Source of the DNA: Pedosphaera sp.
GTDB taxonomy: Bacteria > Verrucomicrobiota > Verrucomicrobiia > Limisphaerales > UBA1100
Direction: 5' to 3'
Assembly: GCA_009695465.1 (NCBI GenBank)
Contig: SIAW01000015.1
Location: forward strand, 1 to 38,147
DNA: 38,147 nucleotides
This document shows, one piece after another, positions 16,336 to 26,164 of the stretch (positions are counted from its first letter, which is position 1; the number at the start of each line of letters is the position of its first letter). The position numbers were made by a program, and so were the translations under genes. The notes beneath the pieces are model-generated. The model saw only the letters and a program-made list of their open reading frames with translations, had not been told where the DNA came from and did no database searches.

Positions 16336-16776
16336 ATGGAGACGTTGACCCACAGCAAGAGCTTTCGCGCGCCGGTTGGCCGGGTGTTTGCCATGTTCAC
16401 GGGCGTTGCCCAAGCGCCCACGTGGATGCAGGCGATCAAGAAGATTGAGGTGCTCCGTGGCACGGGCAGCGCCGTGGGCGATCGCTGGCGGGAGTTGCGC
16501 CGGGTGGGGGGACGAGAACAATGGATGGAATTTGTCGTCACCGAATGTACGCCGGACAAAAGCTGGGCGATTGAGTCGGAGGCGGGCGGCACGCTTTGGA
16601 CGACCCACTTCACGTTCGCTGAATCGCTCGGCGTCACCGAGATTGCGGCGAGCATGCAATGGCAGCCCAAAGGCATCGTGCTGCGGCTGTTCAACGGGAT
16701 GATCCGGCGCAAGATCACCGAAGGCATGGAGATGGATTGTGAGGATTTGCGAAAAGCACTCGAGGAGAAATTATGA
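16336..16776 (+). CDS. SRPBCC (START/polyketide-cyclase-like) domain protein
   Basis: A 146-residue cytoplasmic protein that begins METLTHSKSFRAPVGRVFAMFTGVAQAPTWM, the typical first strand and helix of the SRPBCC helix-grip fold, and ends with the long C-terminal helix GMIRRKITEGMEMDCEDLRKALEEKL. The fold binds hydrophobic or aromatic ligands in a cavity; some members are cyclases or stress proteins. No catalytic residues stand out. It lies 3 nt after the second propeller and its stop overlaps the next start as ATGA, so it belongs to that operon although it has no export signal and its neighbours do. Confidence 0.85.
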   Translation: METLTHSKSFRAPVGRVFAMFTGVAQAPTWMQAIKKIEVLRGTGSAVGDRWRELRRVGGREQWMEFVVTECTPDKSWAIESEAGGTLWTTHFTFAESLGVTEIAASMQWQPKGIVLRLFNGMIRRKITEGMEMDCEDLRKALEEKL

Positions 16777-18764
16777 TTCGATACCTATTCCTGTGTGTGG
16801 CGCTGACGCTGAGCGCGGTTGCTGCAGAATTGAAGACGCCCGGCGACAAGATGTTTGCCGATTATTTCCGGCGCGAGACAGCCAAGGTCTCCGCGCGCAG
16901 TCTAGCGGACATCAAGACGTTGGAGGATTGGAACGCGCGCAAGGGCGGCTATCGCCAGCAACTGTTCGAGATGCTCGGGCTGGATCCGCTGCCGCCCAAG
17001 ACGAAGTTGAACCCCACCGTCACCGGCGTTACGCAGCACGAGGCGTTCGAGGTGCGCAAGTTGCACTTTCAATCCATGCCCGGCCTGTACGTCACGGCCA
17101 ATCTGTACGTGCCCAAAAATCTCACCAAGCCCGCGCCCACCATCTTGTATGTGTGCGGTCATGCGTTGGTGAAGACCAATCAGGTCAGCTTCGGGAACAA
17201 GGCGGGCTACCAGCATCACGGTGCGTGGTTCGCGCGGCACGGCTATGTCTGCCTGACGATTGACACGCTGCAACTGGGGGAGATCGAGGGCATCCATCAC
17301 GGCACCCATAACAAGAACATGTGGTGGTGGAATTCGCGCGGCTATTCCTCCGCCGGGGTGGAGGCGTGGAACTGCATCCGCGCGCTGGATTTTCTGGAGA
17401 CGCAGGATTTCGTGGACAAGACGCGCATCGGCGTCACCGGCCGCAGCGGTGGCGGCGCGTACAGTTGGTGGATCGCTGCGCTCGACGAACGCATCCAAGT
17501 GGCCGCGCCCGTGGCGGGCATCACCGATCTGCAGAACCATGTGGTGGACGGCGTGGTGGAGGGCCACTGCGACTGCATGTTCCACGTGAACACGTACGGC
17601 TGGGATTTCGCGCAGGTGGCCGCGCTCGTTGCGCCGCGTCCATTGTTGATTCTCAACACCGACGACGACCGCATCTTCCCGCTGGACGGCGTGGTGCGCG
17701 TGTTTAATCAGGTGCGCCGCATCTACGAGCTGCACGGCGCGAAGGATAAGCTGGGGCTGGTCATCACGCCCGGCGGCCACTTGGACACGCAAGAGCTGCG
17801 CGTGCCCGCCTTCCGTTGGTTTGATAAACACCTGCTCGGTCAGGTGCGCCCCATCGAGGTGGACGCGACCAAATTGTTCACGCCCCCGCAACTCAAGGTC
17901 TTCGCCGACTTGCCTAAGGACGAGCGCAACACCGTGATCCAAGAGACGTTCACGCGCCGTGCCGATGAGAGCTATCCGTTGCACACCGACCGCGTGCTGG
18001 CTGATCTGCGCCTGAAAACTTTTGGCGGCTGGCCGCAGGCACCCGGCCCGTTGGGCATGCGGACGGCGTTTGAAACTCGGCAGGAAGGCGTGGTGTTTTC
18101 CGGTCACGACTTCACCAGTCAAGACGGCGTGCAACTGCGTCTGTACCTCGCCGCGCGGGAAGGTCTGGCAAAACCCGAGCGCATCCATCTGGAAATTCTC
18201 GGCGAAGAAGAATGGCAGAAATATCTGCAACTGGGCCGCCCCGCTTTTGCCGCTGTGTGGGCCAAAGAACTGGAGCAAGCCGGCATCGCGGGGGATGCGC
18301 CTGTGACGCCGCAGGCCAAGGCCGCGATGCAAAAACAGATGGAACACGTGCGCAACCACGCGGAGGTGTACGCGGTGCTGTTGCCGCGCGGCGTGGGTCT
18401 GACCGCGCTCACCCGCAACGAACGGCATCTTACCCACACGCGCCGCCGGTTCATGCTGCTGGGCCAGACGCTGGCGGGCATGCAGGTGTGGGATGTGCAA
18501 CGCGGCATTGAGGCGCTGCGCACGCTGCCGCAGTGCAAATCCGCGCCGCTGGATTTGTGGGGCTACAACGGGATGGCCAGTCAGACGGCGCTGGCGGCGG
18601 TGTTCGCCCAAGGCGTGGCGCAGATCCACTTGAAAGGATATCCGGCGACGGACAAAGAGCAGCCTGACTATCTGAACATCTCCCGCATCCTCACACCCGC
18701 GCAGGTGCTGCAACTGACGCGGCAACGTACGAAGGTGAACCTGCTCGACGCTGCCAAGAAGTGA
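16773..18764 (+). CDS. Large secreted alpha/beta hydrolase (acetyl xylan esterase-like)
   Basis: A 663-residue exported protein with signal peptide MIRYLFLCVALTLSAVAA. ATG 16773 overlaps the SRPBCC stop and is preceded by a good Shine-Dalgarno (GAGGAG), unlike most first genes in the window. Residues 85-350 form an alpha/beta hydrolase: TILYVCGH, nucleophile elbow GRSGGG with S225, D297-D299 in NTDDDRIF and H336 in PGGHLD as probable triad, close to acetyl xylan esterase-type enzymes. Residues 430-663 are a second region with LDLWGYNGMASQTALAA, which looks like an elbow in which Ser is replaced by Asn, so possibly a non-catalytic duplicate domain (inference). Likely an esterase acting on acylated polysaccharide or natural products. 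Confidence 0.85.
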   Translation: MIRYLFLCVALTLSAVAAELKTPGDKMFADYFRRETAKVSARSLADIKTLEDWNARKGGYRQQLFEMLGLDPLPPKTKLNPTVTGVTQHEAFEVRKLHFQSMPGLYVTANLYVPKNLTKPAPTILYVCGHALVKTNQVSFGNKAGYQHHGAWFARHGYVCLTIDTLQLGEIEGIHHGTHNKNMWWWNSRGYSSAGVEAWNCIRALDFLETQDFVDKTRIGVTGRSGGGAYSWWIAALDERIQVAAPVAGITDLQNHVVDGVVEGHCDCMFHVNTYGWDFAQVAALVAPRPLLILNTDDDRIFPLDGVVRVFNQVRRIYELHGAKDKLGLVITPGGHLDTQELRVPAFRWFDKHLLGQVRPIEVDATKLFTPPQLKVFADLPKDERNTVIQETFTRRADESYPLHTDRVLADLRLKTFGGWPQAPGPLGMRTAFETRQEGVVFSGHDFTSQDGVQLRLYLAAREGLAKPERIHLEILGEEEWQKYLQLGRPAFAAVWAKELEQAGIAGDAPVTPQAKAAMQKQMEHVRNHAEVYAVLLPRGVGLTALTRNERHLTHTRRRFMLLGQTLAGMQVWDVQRGIEALRTLPQCKSAPLDLWGYNGMASQTALAAVFAQGVAQIHLKGYPATDKEQPDYLNISRILTPAQVLQLTRQRTKVNLLDAAKK

Positions 18765-18771
18765 CCGCCCA

Positions 18772-20193
18772 TCACCGCACCGGCGCACGCACGGCGCGGC
18801 CGGCCATTGCATCCTTTTGCAGTTGGCCCTCTTTCACCACCGCCACGCCGTTGACGAGCGTGTAGCGGATGCCCGTGGAGAACCGCGCTGCGTCGGCGTA
18901 GGTGGATTGGTCGCGCACCTTGTCTGCGTCGAAGAGAACCAAGTCCGCATCCGCACCCACCTTGATGCGCCCCTTGTTTTTCATCGCCGGCACGCGCGCC
19001 TCCAGCCGTTGCGCGGGCATGAGGCTGCATTTTTTGAGCGCGAGCATCAGCGGCAAATCTTTGTTCTCGCGCACGTACACGCCCAGCATGCGCGCGTAGG
19101 TGCCGGCGTTGCGCGGATGACCGGGCAGCCCGTCGCTGGCGATCATCGTCAGCGGATGTATCAACGCTTGGCGCACGAGCGGCTCCGGATTGCTGTGCGC
19201 GATGACCAGCCCGCCCGTCTTGCGGAACTGCTCGAAGGTGGCCTTGGTGAGCCGCTCGCCCGTCGCGCCCCATTGCAGGTCTTTGTAATCCATCCCGTCG
19301 CGTTCCATCCAGCCCGGGTCAAAAATCGCAGAGCTGATATCCGTCATCCCGGCGGTGTACGGATACACTTCGCAGGTGATGTCCGCGCCGTTCTTGCGCG
19401 CCTGCGTGATCAGCTCCAGCAACCGCGGCGTGGAGCGCATGCCCGAGGCTTGGATGTGTACGATGTGCCCCGGCGCACCCGTGATGGCCGAGGCCGCGAC
19501 AACCTCTTCCAGCGCGGAGAAAATATTCTGCGTGCCGCGATCGCCTTTGTTGCGGACATGCACGTGGCAGGAGGCTTTGAACTTCGCCGCCGCCGCAAAA
19601 CATTCCAACACCTCCCAGTGGCTGGCCTGCGGAGTGTATTGAAGTCCAAACCCCACCGCGATGGCGCCGCGCTGCAGTCCCTCCTCGAGCTTCGCGCGGA
19701 TCTGCGCCACCTGCTCGGGCGTGGCCGGCTCGCGCGCAGCCTTGCTGGCGGCACCGGGCAGGAACGTGGGGCGATCGCCCAGCACCGACATGCGCGCGGG
19801 GATGTGCCCAACGCTCACGCCAAAGTGGATGGGCGATTTGCCTTCGCGCACGCGGTACCACAGATCCACATCCGCCGCGCCCACTTCCAATTCCAGCGCG
19901 CTGGTCACGCCGTCCATCGCCTTGAAGTGATAATCCGCCAACGTCTGTCCGTGCTGATGCAGATCAATGAAGCCCGGCGCGACGGCTAGACCCTTGGCGT
20001 CGATCACTTGGCGTCCTTGCAACGGCGTCGCGGAGATGGCGCGGATGACCCCGCCGCTGATTCCCAGATGGCGCACGGCATCCAGTTCCGTCTCAGGATC
20101 CAGCACGCGGCCGTGGGCGATCACCAAATCATACGTCTGTGCGCCCACCCCAATTGGAACCCACAGCAGACAGATCAGGATCCAGTGTTTCAT
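18772..20193 (-). CDS. Exported amidohydrolase, N-acyl-D-amino-acid (D-glutamate-like) deacylase
   Basis: A 473-residue metal-dependent amidohydrolase. ATG 20193 opens on a signal peptide (MKHWILICLLWVPIGVGAQ), so it acts outside the cytoplasm. Metal site and fold motifs are PGFIDLHQHGQ (H79, H81), HVHVRNKGD, GHIVHIQASG and TMIASDGLPGHP (Asp near the active site). Where classical D-aminoacylases have a zinc-bridging Cys (GNCG), this has GVTSALELEVG with Glu, together with GVSVGHIPARM; from memory this is the pattern of N-acyl-D-glutamate deacylases. Expected reaction: hydrolysis of N-acyl-D-amino acids. Last gene of a GntP-aldolase-deacylase operon; its start overlaps the aldolase stop by 1 nt. 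Confidence 0.83.
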   Translation of the reverse strand: MKHWILICLLWVPIGVGAQTYDLVIAHGRVLDPETELDAVRHLGISGGVIRAISATPLQGRQVIDAKGLAVAPGFIDLHQHGQTLADYHFKAMDGVTSALELEVGAADVDLWYRVREGKSPIHFGVSVGHIPARMSVLGDRPTFLPGAASKAAREPATPEQVAQIRAKLEEGLQRGAIAVGFGLQYTPQASHWEVLECFAAAAKFKASCHVHVRNKGDRGTQNIFSALEEVVAASAITGAPGHIVHIQASGMRSTPRLLELITQARKNGADITCEVYPYTAGMTDISSAIFDPGWMERDGMDYKDLQWGATGERLTKATFEQFRKTGGLVIAHSNPEPLVRQALIHPLTMIASDGLPGHPRNAGTYARMLGVYVRENKDLPLMLALKKCSLMPAQRLEARVPAMKNKGRIKVGADADLVLFDADKVRDQSTYADAARFSTGIRYTLVNGVAVVKEGQLQKDAMAGRAVRAPVR

Positions 20194-20954
20194 CAGCCGC
20201 GGGCGTCTTGCAGATAATGTTTTACGGCCGGGCACAGCACCGACTCGAACGGCACGGTGATGTAGCGCGCGCCGCGTTCGCGCCAGAGCCGCGCGCCCAC
20301 GCTGTCATACACCATCAATCCCAGCACCTTGTCGCTGGCCAGCACGATGTCGGCGATGCGCTGCATGGCCGCTTGCACGTCAGCGTGGCCAATGTTGCCC
20401 GCGTGACCCAGCGAGTGCGCCAAATCATTTGGCCCGATGAACACCACATCCACACCGTCCACCTTGACGATCTCTGGCAGTCGTTCGATGGCCTGCCCGG
20501 TTTCAATCTGCGCCACCACCAGCGTTTCGGCGTTGGCCTGCTGGACATATTCGGAGAGCGGCGCACCGCGCCCAAATTCCGCGGCGCGGATGCCGGCCAA
20601 TCCACGCTGGCCGCGCGGATGATACTTGATGGACTGCACTGCGCGCTCGGCATCGTCGGCGGTGTTGATGAAAGGGATGTGCGCGCCCTGCGCGCCCGTG
20701 TCCATGAATCGCAGAATCGTGGGCGCATCATTGTGGGTCACGCGCGCGATGGCGGTGAGGCCGCGCAGTTCGCAGGCGCGCGCTTGATCCTCGATGTCGC
20801 GCGGCTGCAACGTGCCGTGTTCGCCGTCGAGCACCAGAAAATCCCAGCCCAGAAATCCCTGCAACTCGATGAGGCTCGTGTCAGGCGTGCGGAAGAATGC
20901 GCCATGCACCGTCTCGCCCGCGCGCAGTTTGGCCTTGGTGAGGTTGGTCTTCAT
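20193..20954 (-). CDS. HpcH/HpaI family 2-keto-3-deoxy acid aldolase
   Basis: A 253-residue class II pyruvate aldolase. ATG 20954 is chosen because MKTNLTKAKLRAGETVHGAF is the standard start; the longer ORF overlaps the permease gene. Motifs: FLVLDGEHGTL (catalytic His), GAQGAHIPFINT, VVAQIETGQAI (metal-ligand Glu), VDVVFIGPNDLAHSLG. Members cleave 2-keto-3-deoxy acids (rhamnonate, glucarate or hydroxyphenylacetate-derived) to pyruvate or a 2-keto acid plus an aldehyde with Mg or Co. Starting 2 nt after the GntP permease stop and overlapping the deacylase start, it is the middle gene of a catabolic operon. Exact substrate cannot be read from the sequence. Confidence 0.9.
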   Translation of the reverse strand: MKTNLTKAKLRAGETVHGAFFRTPDTSLIELQGFLGWDFLVLDGEHGTLQPRDIEDQARACELRGLTAIARVTHNDAPTILRFMDTGAQGAHIPFINTADDAERAVQSIKYHPRGQRGLAGIRAAEFGRGAPLSEYVQQANAETLVVAQIETGQAIERLPEIVKVDGVDVVFIGPNDLAHSLGHAGNIGHADVQAAMQRIADIVLASDKVLGLMVYDSVGARLWRERGARYITVPFESVLCPAVKHYLQDARG

Positions 20955-20956
20955 AT

Positions 20957-22453
20957 TCAAACGCAGGGGAACCAGATTGCGCCCAGCATCGTGACGCCCA
21001 ATCCGACGAACCCCATCAACGTGAGGCTCAGCGAAAATGTCTTGAGCGTTTCCATCTCTGTCATACCGCTCATCTTGCTGATGACCCAAAAGCCGCTGTC
21101 GTTCATCCACGGAAACGGTTTGGAGCCGCAGCCAATCGCCAGCGCCAAGTACACCGGATGATATCCCAGTTGATCGGCCGAGGCCAATCCGCCGACGATG
21201 CCCACCGAGGTGATCATCGCCACCGTGGCCGAGCCTTGCGCCGCACGGATGAGCGCCGTCACCCCGAAGGCCAGCGGCAAGAGCCAGAGATTGGAGGTGA
21301 GCATCCGCGCTGCGGCCTCTTTGATGTGCGGCCCGATGCCCGTCTGTTGCAGCACCGCGCCGAACGCGCCACCCGCCGCGCAGATGAGGATGATCGGCCC
21401 GGCCTCTTCAAAGGCCGGCTGCAGCCGCGCATTGAGCGAGAGGTTCTGGCCACTGGCCTCGCGCAGGGTGAAGAGCGCCAGCAACGCCCCCGTGGCCAAC
21501 GCGACGTTTTCATTGCCCAGAAAATTGATGGACGCGTCCAGCCCCGGCAGGCCGGTGTTTGACACCGAAGCCCCGATGCCGATCAGCGCCAGCGGCAACA
21601 CGATGGGCAGCATCGAAAGCCACAGCGGCGGCAGCTGCTCATTCGGGCGCGCGGACAGTTCCTCCAGCCGCGCCAACATCTCCGGCGTGTCGCGCAGTGG
21701 AATCACCATGCGCCGGTTCAGCCAGTGCGCGATGAGAAATCCCGCGGTGCTGGTGAACGCGCCCACCACCAGTCCGCCAAAGATCATCACGTCCAACCCC
21801 AGCCCCATTTCCTTAGCCACGAAGAGCGGCCCTGGCGTGGGCGGCACCAGCGAGTGCGTCATCGTGCCGCCGGCGATGATGGCCAGCACCATGAGCAGAT
21901 AATCTTTGCGCAGTTTCAGCCACATGGCTTTGGCCAGCGGAATGGCCAGCAAGAAGACGCCCTCGAAAAAAACCGGGATGCCCAGCACAAAGCCACTGAC
22001 TAAAAATGCCAACGGCGCGCCGCCCGGCCCCAGCACGGCAAGTCCGGCGCGCACGATGCGGTCCGCCGCGCCGCTGTCCAAAAGGCAACGGCCGATGATG
22101 CTCGCCAGCGCGATGAGAAAACCGACCTTCGCGCAGGTGCTGCCGAATCCATCGGCCATCCGCTGCAAGGCAGGCTTACCGGCCTCCGCCCGCGCTTGCT
22201 GCTGTATGACGGCTTGCGTGGACGCGTTGATATCCACAGGCGGGGGCTTCACGTCCTCCGCTTCTTTCTTCACCGACTTGCGCCACTCGCGCTCCAAACG
22301 GTCAGTGTGGAATTGCAGCACACTTTCTACAGGCGTGGCCATCGCCACCACCACTGCACCGATGAAGAGCGCGAGAAACGCATGCAGTCGCAGCACCAAA
22401 ATTCCACCCAACACCACGCCCAAGCCAAGCAGCAATAGGAGGACGGGGTTCAT
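20957..22453 (-). CDS. GntP family gluconate-type permease
   Basis: A 498-residue inner-membrane transporter with many hydrophobic segments. ATG 22453 gives MNPVLLLLLGLGVVLGGILVLRLHAFLALF, the usual GntP opening. Diagnostic stretches: SIIGRCLLDSGAADRI, GFVLGIPVFFEGVFLLAIPLA, THSLVPPTPGPL, AAGGAFGAVLQQTGIG and RAAQGSATVAM. Family members import gluconate and related hydroxy acids with protons. Odd point: residues 42-96 form a hydrophilic, charged insert (DRLEREWRKSVKKEAEDVKPP...) between the second hydrophobic segment and the conserved GFGSTCAKVGFLIALASI, making the protein longer than typical GntP (about 440). First gene of the aldolase/deacylase operon. No clear promoter was found in the 156-nt divergent gap. 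Confidence 0.92.
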   Translation of the reverse strand: MNPVLLLLLGLGVVLGGILVLRLHAFLALFIGAVVVAMATPVESVLQFHTDRLEREWRKSVKKEAEDVKPPPVDINASTQAVIQQQARAEAGKPALQRMADGFGSTCAKVGFLIALASIIGRCLLDSGAADRIVRAGLAVLGPGGAPLAFLVSGFVLGIPVFFEGVFLLAIPLAKAMWLKLRKDYLLMVLAIIAGGTMTHSLVPPTPGPLFVAKEMGLGLDVMIFGGLVVGAFTSTAGFLIAHWLNRRMVIPLRDTPEMLARLEELSARPNEQLPPLWLSMLPIVLPLALIGIGASVSNTGLPGLDASINFLGNENVALATGALLALFTLREASGQNLSLNARLQPAFEEAGPIILICAAGGAFGAVLQQTGIGPHIKEAAARMLTSNLWLLPLAFGVTALIRAAQGSATVAMITSVGIVGGLASADQLGYHPVYLALAIGCGSKPFPWMNDSGFWVISKMSGMTEMETLKTFSLSLTLMGFVGLGVTMLGAIWFPCV

Positions 22454-22609: not shown

Positions 22610-24901
22610 ATGAACTCCCCGCTGCGTTTTGCGTTCTGCGTTGTCGTGTCGCTGGTTTGGATGGGCACCACTGCCACGGCGGCTGTGTTGGTGAAGGAAG
22701 GCAAGCCCACTGCGCTGATCGTGTTGCCGCAGGAGCCGGATGCTGCGGAAAAATTGGCGGCCGATGAGCTGGGCGTGCACATCGGGAAAATCTCCGGCGC
22801 GCAGTTGGCCACGACGAATGTGGCGCCGCAGGATTTGCCGGGGTTGCTGGAGCGCAGTCGGCGCGCGGGGATCGCCGTGGTGCGTCTGGGCCGCGCGGCG
22901 GCGTTGGAGAAAGTCATCGAAGCCAAAAGCCCGTTCCCCGGCACGTTCGCCATTCACGTCACGAAAGATCAGGTGCGGGTGGCGGGGCGTGAGATGGGCA
23001 CGGTCTTTGGGGTGATGGAATTGCTGGAGCAGTTGGGCGTGCGCTGGTTCATGCCCGGCGAGTTGGGCACGGTGTTGCCTGCGATGAAAACCGTGACGGT
23101 GGCCGAGCAGCAGATTGCGCAGGCGCCGTCCTTCGCCAGTCGCTGGTTCCAAATGCCGGACCGGGATTGGCAGGTGCGCCTGCGCTGCGGCGGGCCGGTG
23201 TTTCCGGGGGCGCACGGTTTGCCTGGGCCGACGTTCAAGGCCGAGCCGGAATTATTTGCGCTCATCAAAGGGCAGCGCAGTGCGCGCCAGCATTGCCTCT
23301 CCAACCCGAAGTTGTTGGAGCAGGTGATTGTGCGCGTGCGCGAGATGCGCGCCAAAGGTCGCGGGCCGATCATCGGCATGGGGCCTAATGACGGGCGCGG
23401 GTTTTGTGAGTGCGACAAATGTCGTGCGCTCGACGGCGGGGATTTCGATCCCTTCTCCGGCGAACCGGCGGTGACGGACCGGTACATCTGGTTTTTCAAC
23501 CAAGTGTTGGAGGGACTGGCCGCAGATTTTCCAGACACGAAAATTGCTTTCTATATCTACCATTCCTACATGCGCCCGCCGGTGCGTTGGAAACCCAACC
23601 CGCGCATCACTGGGGCGCTGGCGCCCATCGCACTGGATCGCGTGCACGGGTTTTCAAATCCGGTGGCGCCGGAGAAAAGCTACGCGCGCTGGTTGTACCA
23701 GGAATGGGGCAAGCTGTTGCCCGAATTGTACGACCGCGGTTACTGGAGCAATCTGGCGGACCCGGGATTCCCGTTCATCATCGTGCACCGGCTGCGCGAC
23801 GAGATTCCCGCATGCCACGCGCTGGGTGTCAAAGGCTGGCGCGTGGAGACCTTTCCCAACTACGGCCCGCAGTTGCCCTCGATGTACATCGCGGCGCGGT
23901 TGATGTGGGATCACAAGGCGGATGTGGACGCGTTGCTGGCGGACTTCGCGGAGAAATTCTTCGGCCCCGCTGCCGTGCCGATGGGCCGGTATGTCGGGTT
24001 GATGGACGCGGCGCTGCGGGACAGCCCCGACTGCACCGGCTCGGCGTGGGACATGCCACATTTTTATCCCGCGCCGCTGCGCGCCCAAGCGCGTCGCCTG
24101 CTCGATGAAGGCGCCAAGCTGGCTGCCGGTCGTGGCGTGTACGAGGCGCGCGTGCGCATGGTGCGGCAGACCTTCGACATGCTCGAGTTGTTCGTGGCGA
24201 TGATGGACGCCCGCACCCGTGTGGATTTCGCCGAAGCACAGCGCGCGCTGGTGCAGATGGATGCGGTGGCCGCAGAGTTGATGGCGCAGAAGCCGGTGGC
24301 GATGGTGTCGGCGGGGCGCTTCAGCACCTACGTCAATTACATGAAACGCTTCTACCGGCCGGCCACTGAGCAGGGTTTCGCGCGCGTCACCGGCGGCAAC
24401 CGTCTGGTCGCTGCGGCGCGCGACGAGTGGGATTTCCTCATCGACCCGCCGAGGGTGGGCGAAGGCATCGGCCTGTGGCGAGAGGAGATCCGTGGTGGCA
24501 ACTGGCAGAAGTTAAAAACCTCCAGCGCCTCGTGGAGCCATCAAGGGCTGCGCTACTACAAAGGATTGGCGTGGTACCGCCAGACGGTGGAGGTGCCCGC
24601 GCAGTTCAAAGGGCAGCGAGTGTTCCTCTGGTGCGGCGGCGTGGATGAAAAGGCGAAGGTGTGGGTCAACGGGCAGCCCATCGGCATCAGTCACGGCGCG
24701 GCGTTTTATCCCTTTGAGATGGACGTGACGGAGGCGGTGCGCGCCGGTGCGCCCAACCACATCACCTTCTGCGTGGTCAACGACGTGGTGAACGAACTGG
24801 GCACCGGCGGCATCGTCGCGCCGGTGATTTTCTACGCGCCAGCCGCCGGCAAGGACGCGAAGCTGGACAACACACGTCCGCTGGGCGACACGTTCCCGTG
24901 A
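22610..24901 (+). CDS. DUF4838 protein with C-terminal GH2-like jelly roll
   Basis: A 763-residue exported protein; I take ATG 22610 rather than the TTG two codons upstream. After a signal peptide (about residues 1-25), residues 26-170 resemble the N-terminal domain of alpha-glucuronidases (LIVLPQEPDAAEKLAADELGVHIGKISGA ... VFGVMELLEQLGVRWF). The central DUF4838 region has the Cys-containing motif GMGPNDGRGFCECDKCRALD and YIWFFNQVLEGL. Residues about 610-750 (WYRQTVEVPAQFKGQRVFLW, VWVNGQPIG, FEMDVTEAVRAGAPNHITFCV) are a beta-jelly-roll like the sugar-binding domain of GH2 enzymes. Likely a polysaccharide-active protein. It lies alone between divergent gntP-type and convergent dapL genes. Confidence 0.85.
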   Translation: MNSPLRFAFCVVVSLVWMGTTATAAVLVKEGKPTALIVLPQEPDAAEKLAADELGVHIGKISGAQLATTNVAPQDLPGLLERSRRAGIAVVRLGRAAALEKVIEAKSPFPGTFAIHVTKDQVRVAGREMGTVFGVMELLEQLGVRWFMPGELGTVLPAMKTVTVAEQQIAQAPSFASRWFQMPDRDWQVRLRCGGPVFPGAHGLPGPTFKAEPELFALIKGQRSARQHCLSNPKLLEQVIVRVREMRAKGRGPIIGMGPNDGRGFCECDKCRALDGGDFDPFSGEPAVTDRYIWFFNQVLEGLAADFPDTKIAFYIYHSYMRPPVRWKPNPRITGALAPIALDRVHGFSNPVAPEKSYARWLYQEWGKLLPELYDRGYWSNLADPGFPFIIVHRLRDEIPACHALGVKGWRVETFPNYGPQLPSMYIAARLMWDHKADVDALLADFAEKFFGPAAVPMGRYVGLMDAALRDSPDCTGSAWDMPHFYPAPLRAQARRLLDEGAKLAAGRGVYEARVRMVRQTFDMLELFVAMMDARTRVDFAEAQRALVQMDAVAAELMAQKPVAMVSAGRFSTYVNYMKRFYRPATEQGFARVTGGNRLVAAARDEWDFLIDPPRVGEGIGLWREEIRGGNWQKLKTSSASWSHQGLRYYKGLAWYRQTVEVPAQFKGQRVFLWCGGVDEKAKVWVNGQPIGISHGAAFYPFEMDVTEAVRAGAPNHITFCVVNDVVNELGTGGIVAPVIFYAPAAGKDAKLDNTRPLGDTFP

Positions 24902-24925: not shown

Positions 24926-26164
24926 CTACCACTTCAACGCCTGCAGACGACGGGCGACTTCTTCGGCGTTGGCGCGGCTGTTGAAGGCGGAGATGCGGAA
25001 GAAGCCTTCGCCCTTGGAGCCAAAGCCGCTGCCGGGTGTGATGACGACGTTGGCTCCGTTGAGAATCTTGTCGAAGATCTGCCAGCTCGTGACGCCTTTC
25101 GGCGTGCGCACCCAAATGTACGGCGCGTTCACGCCGCCAAAAACTTTCAGCCCAGCCTTGCGCGCGCCGGTGCGCAGCACCTTTGCGTTGCCCATGTAAT
25201 GTTCGATGAGCGCGCGCACCTGCGCCTTGCCGTCGTCTGAGTAAAGCGCCTCGGCCGCGCGCTGGATGATGTACGAGACGCCGTTGAACTTCGTGGTCAT
25301 GCGACGATTCCAGAGCGGGTGCAGCGGCTTCGTCTCGCCGGACTTCGTCTGCGCGTTGAGCGATTTCGGCACGACAGTGAACGCGCAGCGCGTGCCGGTG
25401 AACCCGCCGTTCTTGGAGAAGCTGCGGAACTCGATGGCACATTCGCGCGCGCCGGGAATTTCGTAGATGGAATGCGGAATGCCCGGCTCGCTGATGTACG
25501 CCTCGTACGCGGCGTCGAAAAGGATGATGGAATTATTCTCGAGCGCGTACTTCACCCACGCCTCGAGTTGCTCGCGCGTGGCGGCCGCGCCGGTGGGATT
25601 ATTCGGCGAACAAAGATAAATCACGTCCACGTGTTTCTTCGGCGGCTCGGGGATGAAACCGTTGCTCGGGCGGCAGGGGAGATAAACAATCTTGCCGTAC
25701 GCGCCGGCCTCGTTCGCCTCGCCGGTGTGGCCGGCCATCACGTTCGTGTCCACGTACACGGGATACACGGGATCGCTGATGGCGAGTTTGTTTTTGCCGC
25801 CGAGGATGTCGAGGATGTTGCCGCAATCGCACTTGGAACCGTCGCTCACGAAAATCTCGTCGTCGGCCACATCAATCCCGTGATCGCGATAATCATTCTT
25901 CGCGATGGCCGCGCGAAGGAAGTCGTAGCCTTGCTCGGGGCCGTAACCTTTGAACGTCGCGCGCGCGCCCATCTCATCCACCGCCTTGTGCAGCGCGGCG
26001 GTGACGGCGAGCGGCAACGGCTCCGTCACATCACCAATGCCGCAACGGATGAGCCGTTGCGCCGCGTCGGGATTCGCGTCGCAGAATGCCTTCACGCGCC
26101 GGCCGATTTCCGGGAAAAGATAACCGGCCTTGAGCTTGAGATAATTGTCGTTGAGATAAGCCAT
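24926..26164 (-). CDS. dapL: LL-diaminopimelate aminotransferase
   Basis: A 412-residue PLP-dependent class I/II aminotransferase converting tetrahydrodipicolinate directly to LL-diaminopimelate with glutamate as amino donor, for lysine and peptidoglycan. ATG 26164 gives [24 protein letters not shown], the DapL start. Motifs: [51 protein letters not shown] (N188/N189), DAAYEAYI (D217, Y220) and [15 protein letters not shown] with K251 as Schiff-base Lys. From memory, the DapL shortcut occurs in Verrucomicrobia, Chlamydiae, plants and some other phyla, which agrees with the proposed origin. A good promoter (TTGCCA-17-TACGGT) lies upstream. Confidence 0.96.

Follow-up and report, generated by a model that had tools for sequence, protein, structure and literature searches.

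Which compound is taken up and split by a gluconate-type permease and a 2-keto-3-deoxy acid aldolase that are encoded back to back in a verrucomicrobial genome, and does the exported amidohydrolase encoded directly behind them act on the same compound? The three genes lie in a stretch of 38,147 nucleotides from Pedosphaera sp., which was analysed as a whole and is referred to here as the window. A first-pass annotation made from the sequence had read them as an operon for the catabolism of a polyhydroxy acid, with an exported D-glutamate-like deacylase as the third member.

Organization and distribution of the locus

All three genes are on the reverse strand: a GntP-family permease of 498 residues (22453-20957) is followed by an HpcH/HpaI class II aldolase of 253 residues (20954-20193) and a PRK09061-type amidohydrolase of 473 residues (20193-18772). 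A check of the open reading frames reproduced to the base the spacing given at first pass, with 2 nt between permease and aldolase and a 1-nt overlap between aldolase and amidohydrolase at position 20193, where stop and start codon are fused in TGATG. A promoter search at the operon returned nothing informative. In agreement with the proposed operon, the order permease-aldolase-amidohydrolase is kept in four further genomes, with spacings of 0 to 6 nt for the first pair and of -4 to 30 nt for the last. The possibility raised in the first-pass annotation that the gene partners differ in all relatives was looked at, and the complete trio was found in five genomes (G000, G001, G005, G007 and G016) from three genera of one Verrucomicrobiales family, in all five at a fixed site between dapL on one side and an alpha/beta hydrolase gene on the other.

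In the same family, permease and amidohydrolase occur without the aldolase in G006, G008, G010 and G012, and the permease is found alone in G009, G015, G018 and G019. In G002 only the aldolase is present, close to the corresponding hydrolase gene, so that its persistence without the other two genes is evidently possible. The host draft genome of the window comprises 2.57 Mb at a completeness of about 91%, and single absences are therefore weak evidence. The aldolase subgroup was detected in six of 320 genomes from the order, all of the same family and at 62-100% identity, the next-best matches dropping to 35-38%; the amidohydrolase is present in 25. In the loci read from other families and phyla, the amidohydrolase never adjoins a permease or an aldolase of the kinds described here. 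All three enzyme families are known, and their combination was found in one bacterial family only; a search of the open-licence literature returned no paper treating a GntP permease and an HpcH aldolase together.

In most of the family's genomes the locus is bordered by dapL (LL-diaminopimelate aminotransferase; 24926-26164) and the alpha/beta hydrolase gene (16773-18764), whose product weakly matches models of glucuronyl esterase and acetyl xylan esterase. A divergently oriented forward-strand gene at 22661-24901 encodes a DUF4838 protein that includes a GH2-type sugar-binding domain; G001 has a gene of comparable size at the corresponding place, where a conserved PQQ-repeat-like gene is found in several further genomes of the family.

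Permease and aldolase

The permease is a clear member of the GntP family (PF02447, 261 bits at a threshold of 22.5, E 1.9e-77). It remains below the cut-off for gluconate:H+ symporters (TIGR00791, 221.3 of 292.75) and far below that for DsdX (131 of 618). Among 20 loci with related permeases from other families, six carry a sugar-acid dehydratase gene 8-15 nt upstream of the permease; the dehydratase is an MR/MLE protein in G122 and in four genomes belonging to a single genus, and an IlvD/Edd protein in G063. Two more have such neighbours in a looser or different arrangement: in G118 an MR/MLE gene lies 364 nt upstream and a KdgD-like protein is encoded close by, and in G153 a KdgD-like protein adjoins the permease. 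The other 12 have none; the permease positions in G189 and G175 were taken from a separate search and not from the gene caller. The MR/MLE neighbours score best as gluconate/galactonate dehydratase, below the cut-off of that model. Based on the dehydratases and KdgD-like proteins next to its relatives, a sugar acid is the likeliest cargo of the permease. Within the window's own family, no close orthologue of the permease-linked dehydratase was found (best identity 27-34%); several MR/MLE proteins of other types are present.

The aldolase matches PF03328 (116 bits, threshold 25, E 1.8e-33), was aligned to 4b5s and aligns over its full length to the structures of HpaI, GarL and YfaU. Residues D43, H46, R71, E151 and D177, which we take to be the equivalents of D42, H45, R70, E149 and D175 of HpaI, are present and invariant in six homologues. 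The catalytic set is thus complete, and the enzyme would be expected to cleave a 2-keto-3-deoxy-type acid. It shares family and catalytic residues with HpaI, GarL and RhmA/YfaU, but differs from them in that it falls below every equivalog cut-off (HpaI, 174.8 of 368.8; GarL, 154.4 of 406.75; RhmA, 126.9 of 441) and belongs to a subgroup restricted, within the order, to one family. The neighbours of the related permeases and the retained catalytic residues bear out the part of the first-pass annotation that assigned permease and aldolase to a polyhydroxy acid.

That the two genes belong together is further indicated by their history at the locus. In a tree of the permeases encoded at this site, those of the five trio genomes fall into a single clade (support 0.994), outside which lie the eight permeases without an aldolase, at about 51-62% identity to the former. 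The aldolase accompanies five of five permeases of this clade and none of the eight others at the same site. In contrast, the dapL tree mixes the two kinds: members of genus g5 form one group whichever kind they carry (0.996), and both kinds are likewise represented in genus g4. Thus, permease type and aldolase seem to appear and vanish together at a fixed locus, as judged from 13 related genomes that represent few independent events and are in part incomplete. The amidohydrolase tree departs from that of the permease, as the enzyme of G006, a genome with the other permease, clusters with those of the trio genomes at full support. Coupling of the amidohydrolase to the other two genes is loose: the enzyme is also paired with the other permease clade, and elsewhere it occurs alone or beside D-amino-acid dehydrogenases.

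Similar gene sets are known from Escherichia coli, where the D-xylonate operons yagEFG and yjhIHG encode an acid-sugar transporter, a dehydratase and a pyruvate-forming 2-keto-3-deoxy acid aldolase (PMC13279387). The predicted sugar-acid transporter and pyruvate-forming aldolase of the window have counterparts in these operons, while the E. coli operons include the dehydratase and have no amidohydrolase. In total, the interpretation of permease and aldolase as a sugar-acid unit is fairly well supported. The aldolase of yagEFG and yjhIHG is of the DHDPS type, unlike the HpcH/HpaI type found here.

The amidohydrolase

The amidohydrolase scores 521.5 bits against NF006560/PRK09061 (curated cut-off 340, E 1.8e-156). 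Its N-terminus, MKHWILICLLWVPIGVGAQ, is signal-peptide-like when read by eye, and those of near relatives are similar, in line with the export proposed in the first-pass annotation. An AlphaFold model (mean pLDDT 91.2, pTM 0.90) was compared with known structures by Foldseek, yielding TM scores of 0.78-0.81 to 9kb4, 9g5m, 3gip and 1m7j. The closest folds are PpOngB, a Klebsiella D-acylase and the Bordetella N-acyl-D-glutamate deacylase (BbDam), at TM scores of about 0.80-0.81 and 24-26% identity, and by its fold the protein goes with the subtype V D-aminoacylases (AfDam, BbDam, OngB). In enzymes of this subtype, zinc is bound by Cys/His/His, an Asp is catalytic, and the substrate carboxylate is contacted by Lys, Tyr and Arg residues (PMC12017989). 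Residues H79 and H81 of the HxH motif, H212, H246, the catalytic D354, Y279 and R361 are all kept in the window protein. The zinc-ligand Cys of D-aminoacylases is absent, and the strand concerned carries E101-L-E103 instead; x-[LM]-E replaces the Cys in most homologues as well, and the second Glu (the E103 position) is kept in those of Verrucomicrobiota, Acidobacteria, Chloroflexi, Alphaproteobacteria, Streptomyces and Vibrionales. From the sequence, this Glu may serve as metal ligand in place of the Cys, although an ungapped alignment sets Val, not Glu, opposite the Cys.

Further differences concern substrate binding. The carboxylate-binding Lys254 of OngB corresponds to Gln248 in the window protein and to Asn, Thr or similar residues in homologues; no Gln is evident in place of the C5-hydroxyl-binding Gln298 of OngB, in a loop of uncertain alignment; and in TAGMTDISSAIFDPGW, the approximately aligned loop that corresponds to the region around the gamma-carboxylate-binding Arg295 of N-acyl-D-glutamate deacylase, there is no conserved Arg. 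Accordingly, the protein has the fold and most catalytic residues in common with the Bordetella bronchiseptica N-acyl-D-glutamate deacylase (3gip; 26% identity in the fold alignment), but not the Cys ligand, the Lys or the D-Glu-binding Arg295. Since these three residues are absent, as read against the published enzymes (PMC12017989), the name 'D-glutamate deacylase' is unsupported, specificity for D-glutamate was rejected as a reading, and the first-pass description as 'D-glutamate-like' has to be given up. Hydrolysis of an amide in the vicinity of D-amino-acid metabolism is a plausible prediction.

Homologues elsewhere have varied neighbours. Those of Phyllobacterium and Streptomyces adjoin D-amino-acid-dehydrogenase-like genes, and in several Alphaproteobacteria differing sets of genes for an M81/MlrC peptidase, a CobW/ZigA-like GTPase, an FAD oxidoreductase and TRAP components are found. 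At L134 and L136, a conserved alphaproteobacterial plasmid cluster comprises FAD oxidoreductase, TRAP transporter, M81/MlrC peptidase, PRK09061 amidohydrolase and CobW GTPase. Acidobacteria carry tandem PRK09061 paralogues (L066:1179-4038 and L070). PRK09061 relatives from Firestonebacteria and Paenibacillus (L071, L072, L074 and L137) have lost the HxH motif (LSY) and show His in place of the conserved Glu, and their metal site is possibly different or lost. In three genomes of the window's family (L095:4297-7374 in G000:C82, L093 and L094), genes that, by sequence impression only, resemble gcvT and gcvH of glycine cleavage are neighbours of a D-aminoacylase homologue in which the Cys ligand motif is retained.

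Proposed pathway and alternatives

It is very likely that the three genes constitute one operon, in which permease and aldolase serve to import and split a compound similar to a sugar acid and an exported enzyme that cuts amides is added to them. In the reading that we favor, at a probability of roughly 0.42, they act as one catabolic operon, from amidohydrolase through GntP to aldolase. In the periplasm, the exported amidohydrolase would act on an N-acylated hydroxy- or polyhydroxy-acid and hydrolyse its amide bond, and GntP, judging from the genomic context of its relatives, would move the liberated polar acid, or a different sugar acid from the same source, across the inner membrane. In the cytoplasm, the aldolase, which has the required residues, would release pyruvate and an aldehyde from a 4-hydroxy-2-oxo (2-keto-3-deoxy) acid; the oxo acid would be produced by a dehydratase or deaminase encoded outside the operon, as neither is present within it. 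The pair of permease and aldolase is the better supported unit and the amidohydrolase the least certain member. That the latter delivers the substrate of the other two is plausible from their kept adjacency and partly contradicted by its independent history, and we give this somewhat less than an even chance. It may further be speculated, as an outside chance, that the operon degrades an undescribed natural class of N-acylated sugar or hydroxy acids by a periplasmic amidohydrolase that has Glu for Cys in its metal site and is coupled to import by GntP and to a dedicated aldolase of the non-phosphorylating kind.

The independent history might also mean that permease and aldolase form the sugar-acid unit and the amidohydrolase is merely co-located, with a separate role such as the scavenging of N-acyl-D-amino acids. 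The co-variation of permease and aldolase would fit, as would an amidohydrolase that pairs with both kinds of permease, is unlinked to them in other families and adjoins D-amino-acid-dehydrogenase-like genes elsewhere. However, the tight spacing kept across five genomes and three genera counts for a joint function: the frames overlap or nearly overlap in all five trio genomes and permease and amidohydrolase are adjacent in four more, which exceeds what indifference would produce, and we regard mere co-location as rather unlikely. If the amidohydrolase instead released a hydroxy-D-amino acid (e.g. a 4-hydroxyglutamate-like compound), this could pass a DsdX-like GntP and a D-amino-acid dehydrogenase to reach the aldolase. 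DsdX does belong to the GntP family, and the dehydrogenase-like neighbours in Phyllobacterium and Streptomyces point in this direction; the low DsdX score, the sugar-acid dehydratases adjoining related permeases and a search of the window's genome for a D-amino-acid dehydrogenase, which gave weak and partial matches only (at best E 5e-9 across about 130 residues), make such a route improbable.

A single substrate that would fit all three genes, and is chemically attractive for this reason, is N-acetylglucosaminate (GlcNAc1A) from oxidised chitin, which would be deacetylated in the periplasm, taken up as glucosaminate by GntP, deaminated to KDG and cleaved directly by the aldolase. OngB, the nearest fold (TM 0.81), deacetylates GlcNAc1A in the ong cluster of Pseudoalteromonas prydzensis, where a deacylase of D-aminoacylase fold likewise acts ahead of a 2-keto-3-deoxy sugar acid and the route proceeds via KDG (PMC9537276). 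However, OngB has the Cys97 and Lys254 that the window protein lacks, as well as the Gln298 not evident there, and is cytoplasmic by prediction; moreover, the ong cluster employs an SSS transporter and a KDG kinase where GntP and a direct aldolase are found here. No LPMO was detected in any of 20 genomes searched, and PF14031, taken as a proxy for a deaminase of the OngC kind, occurs in G001 and G005 but not in the window's genome. Because of these two absences, an ong-like pathway was rejected as the main reading, and we consider it to have little likelihood.

The favored reading of one catabolic operon, from amidohydrolase through GntP to aldolase, provides a small and testable system in uncultured Verrucomicrobiota. 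For the amidohydrolase, the protein-group label 'D-glutamate deacylase' is corrected, as the residues that define this specificity and metal site are missing and the place of the cysteine is taken by a conserved acidic motif, and within this small verrucomicrobial operon, permease and aldolase are apparently exchanged as a pair.
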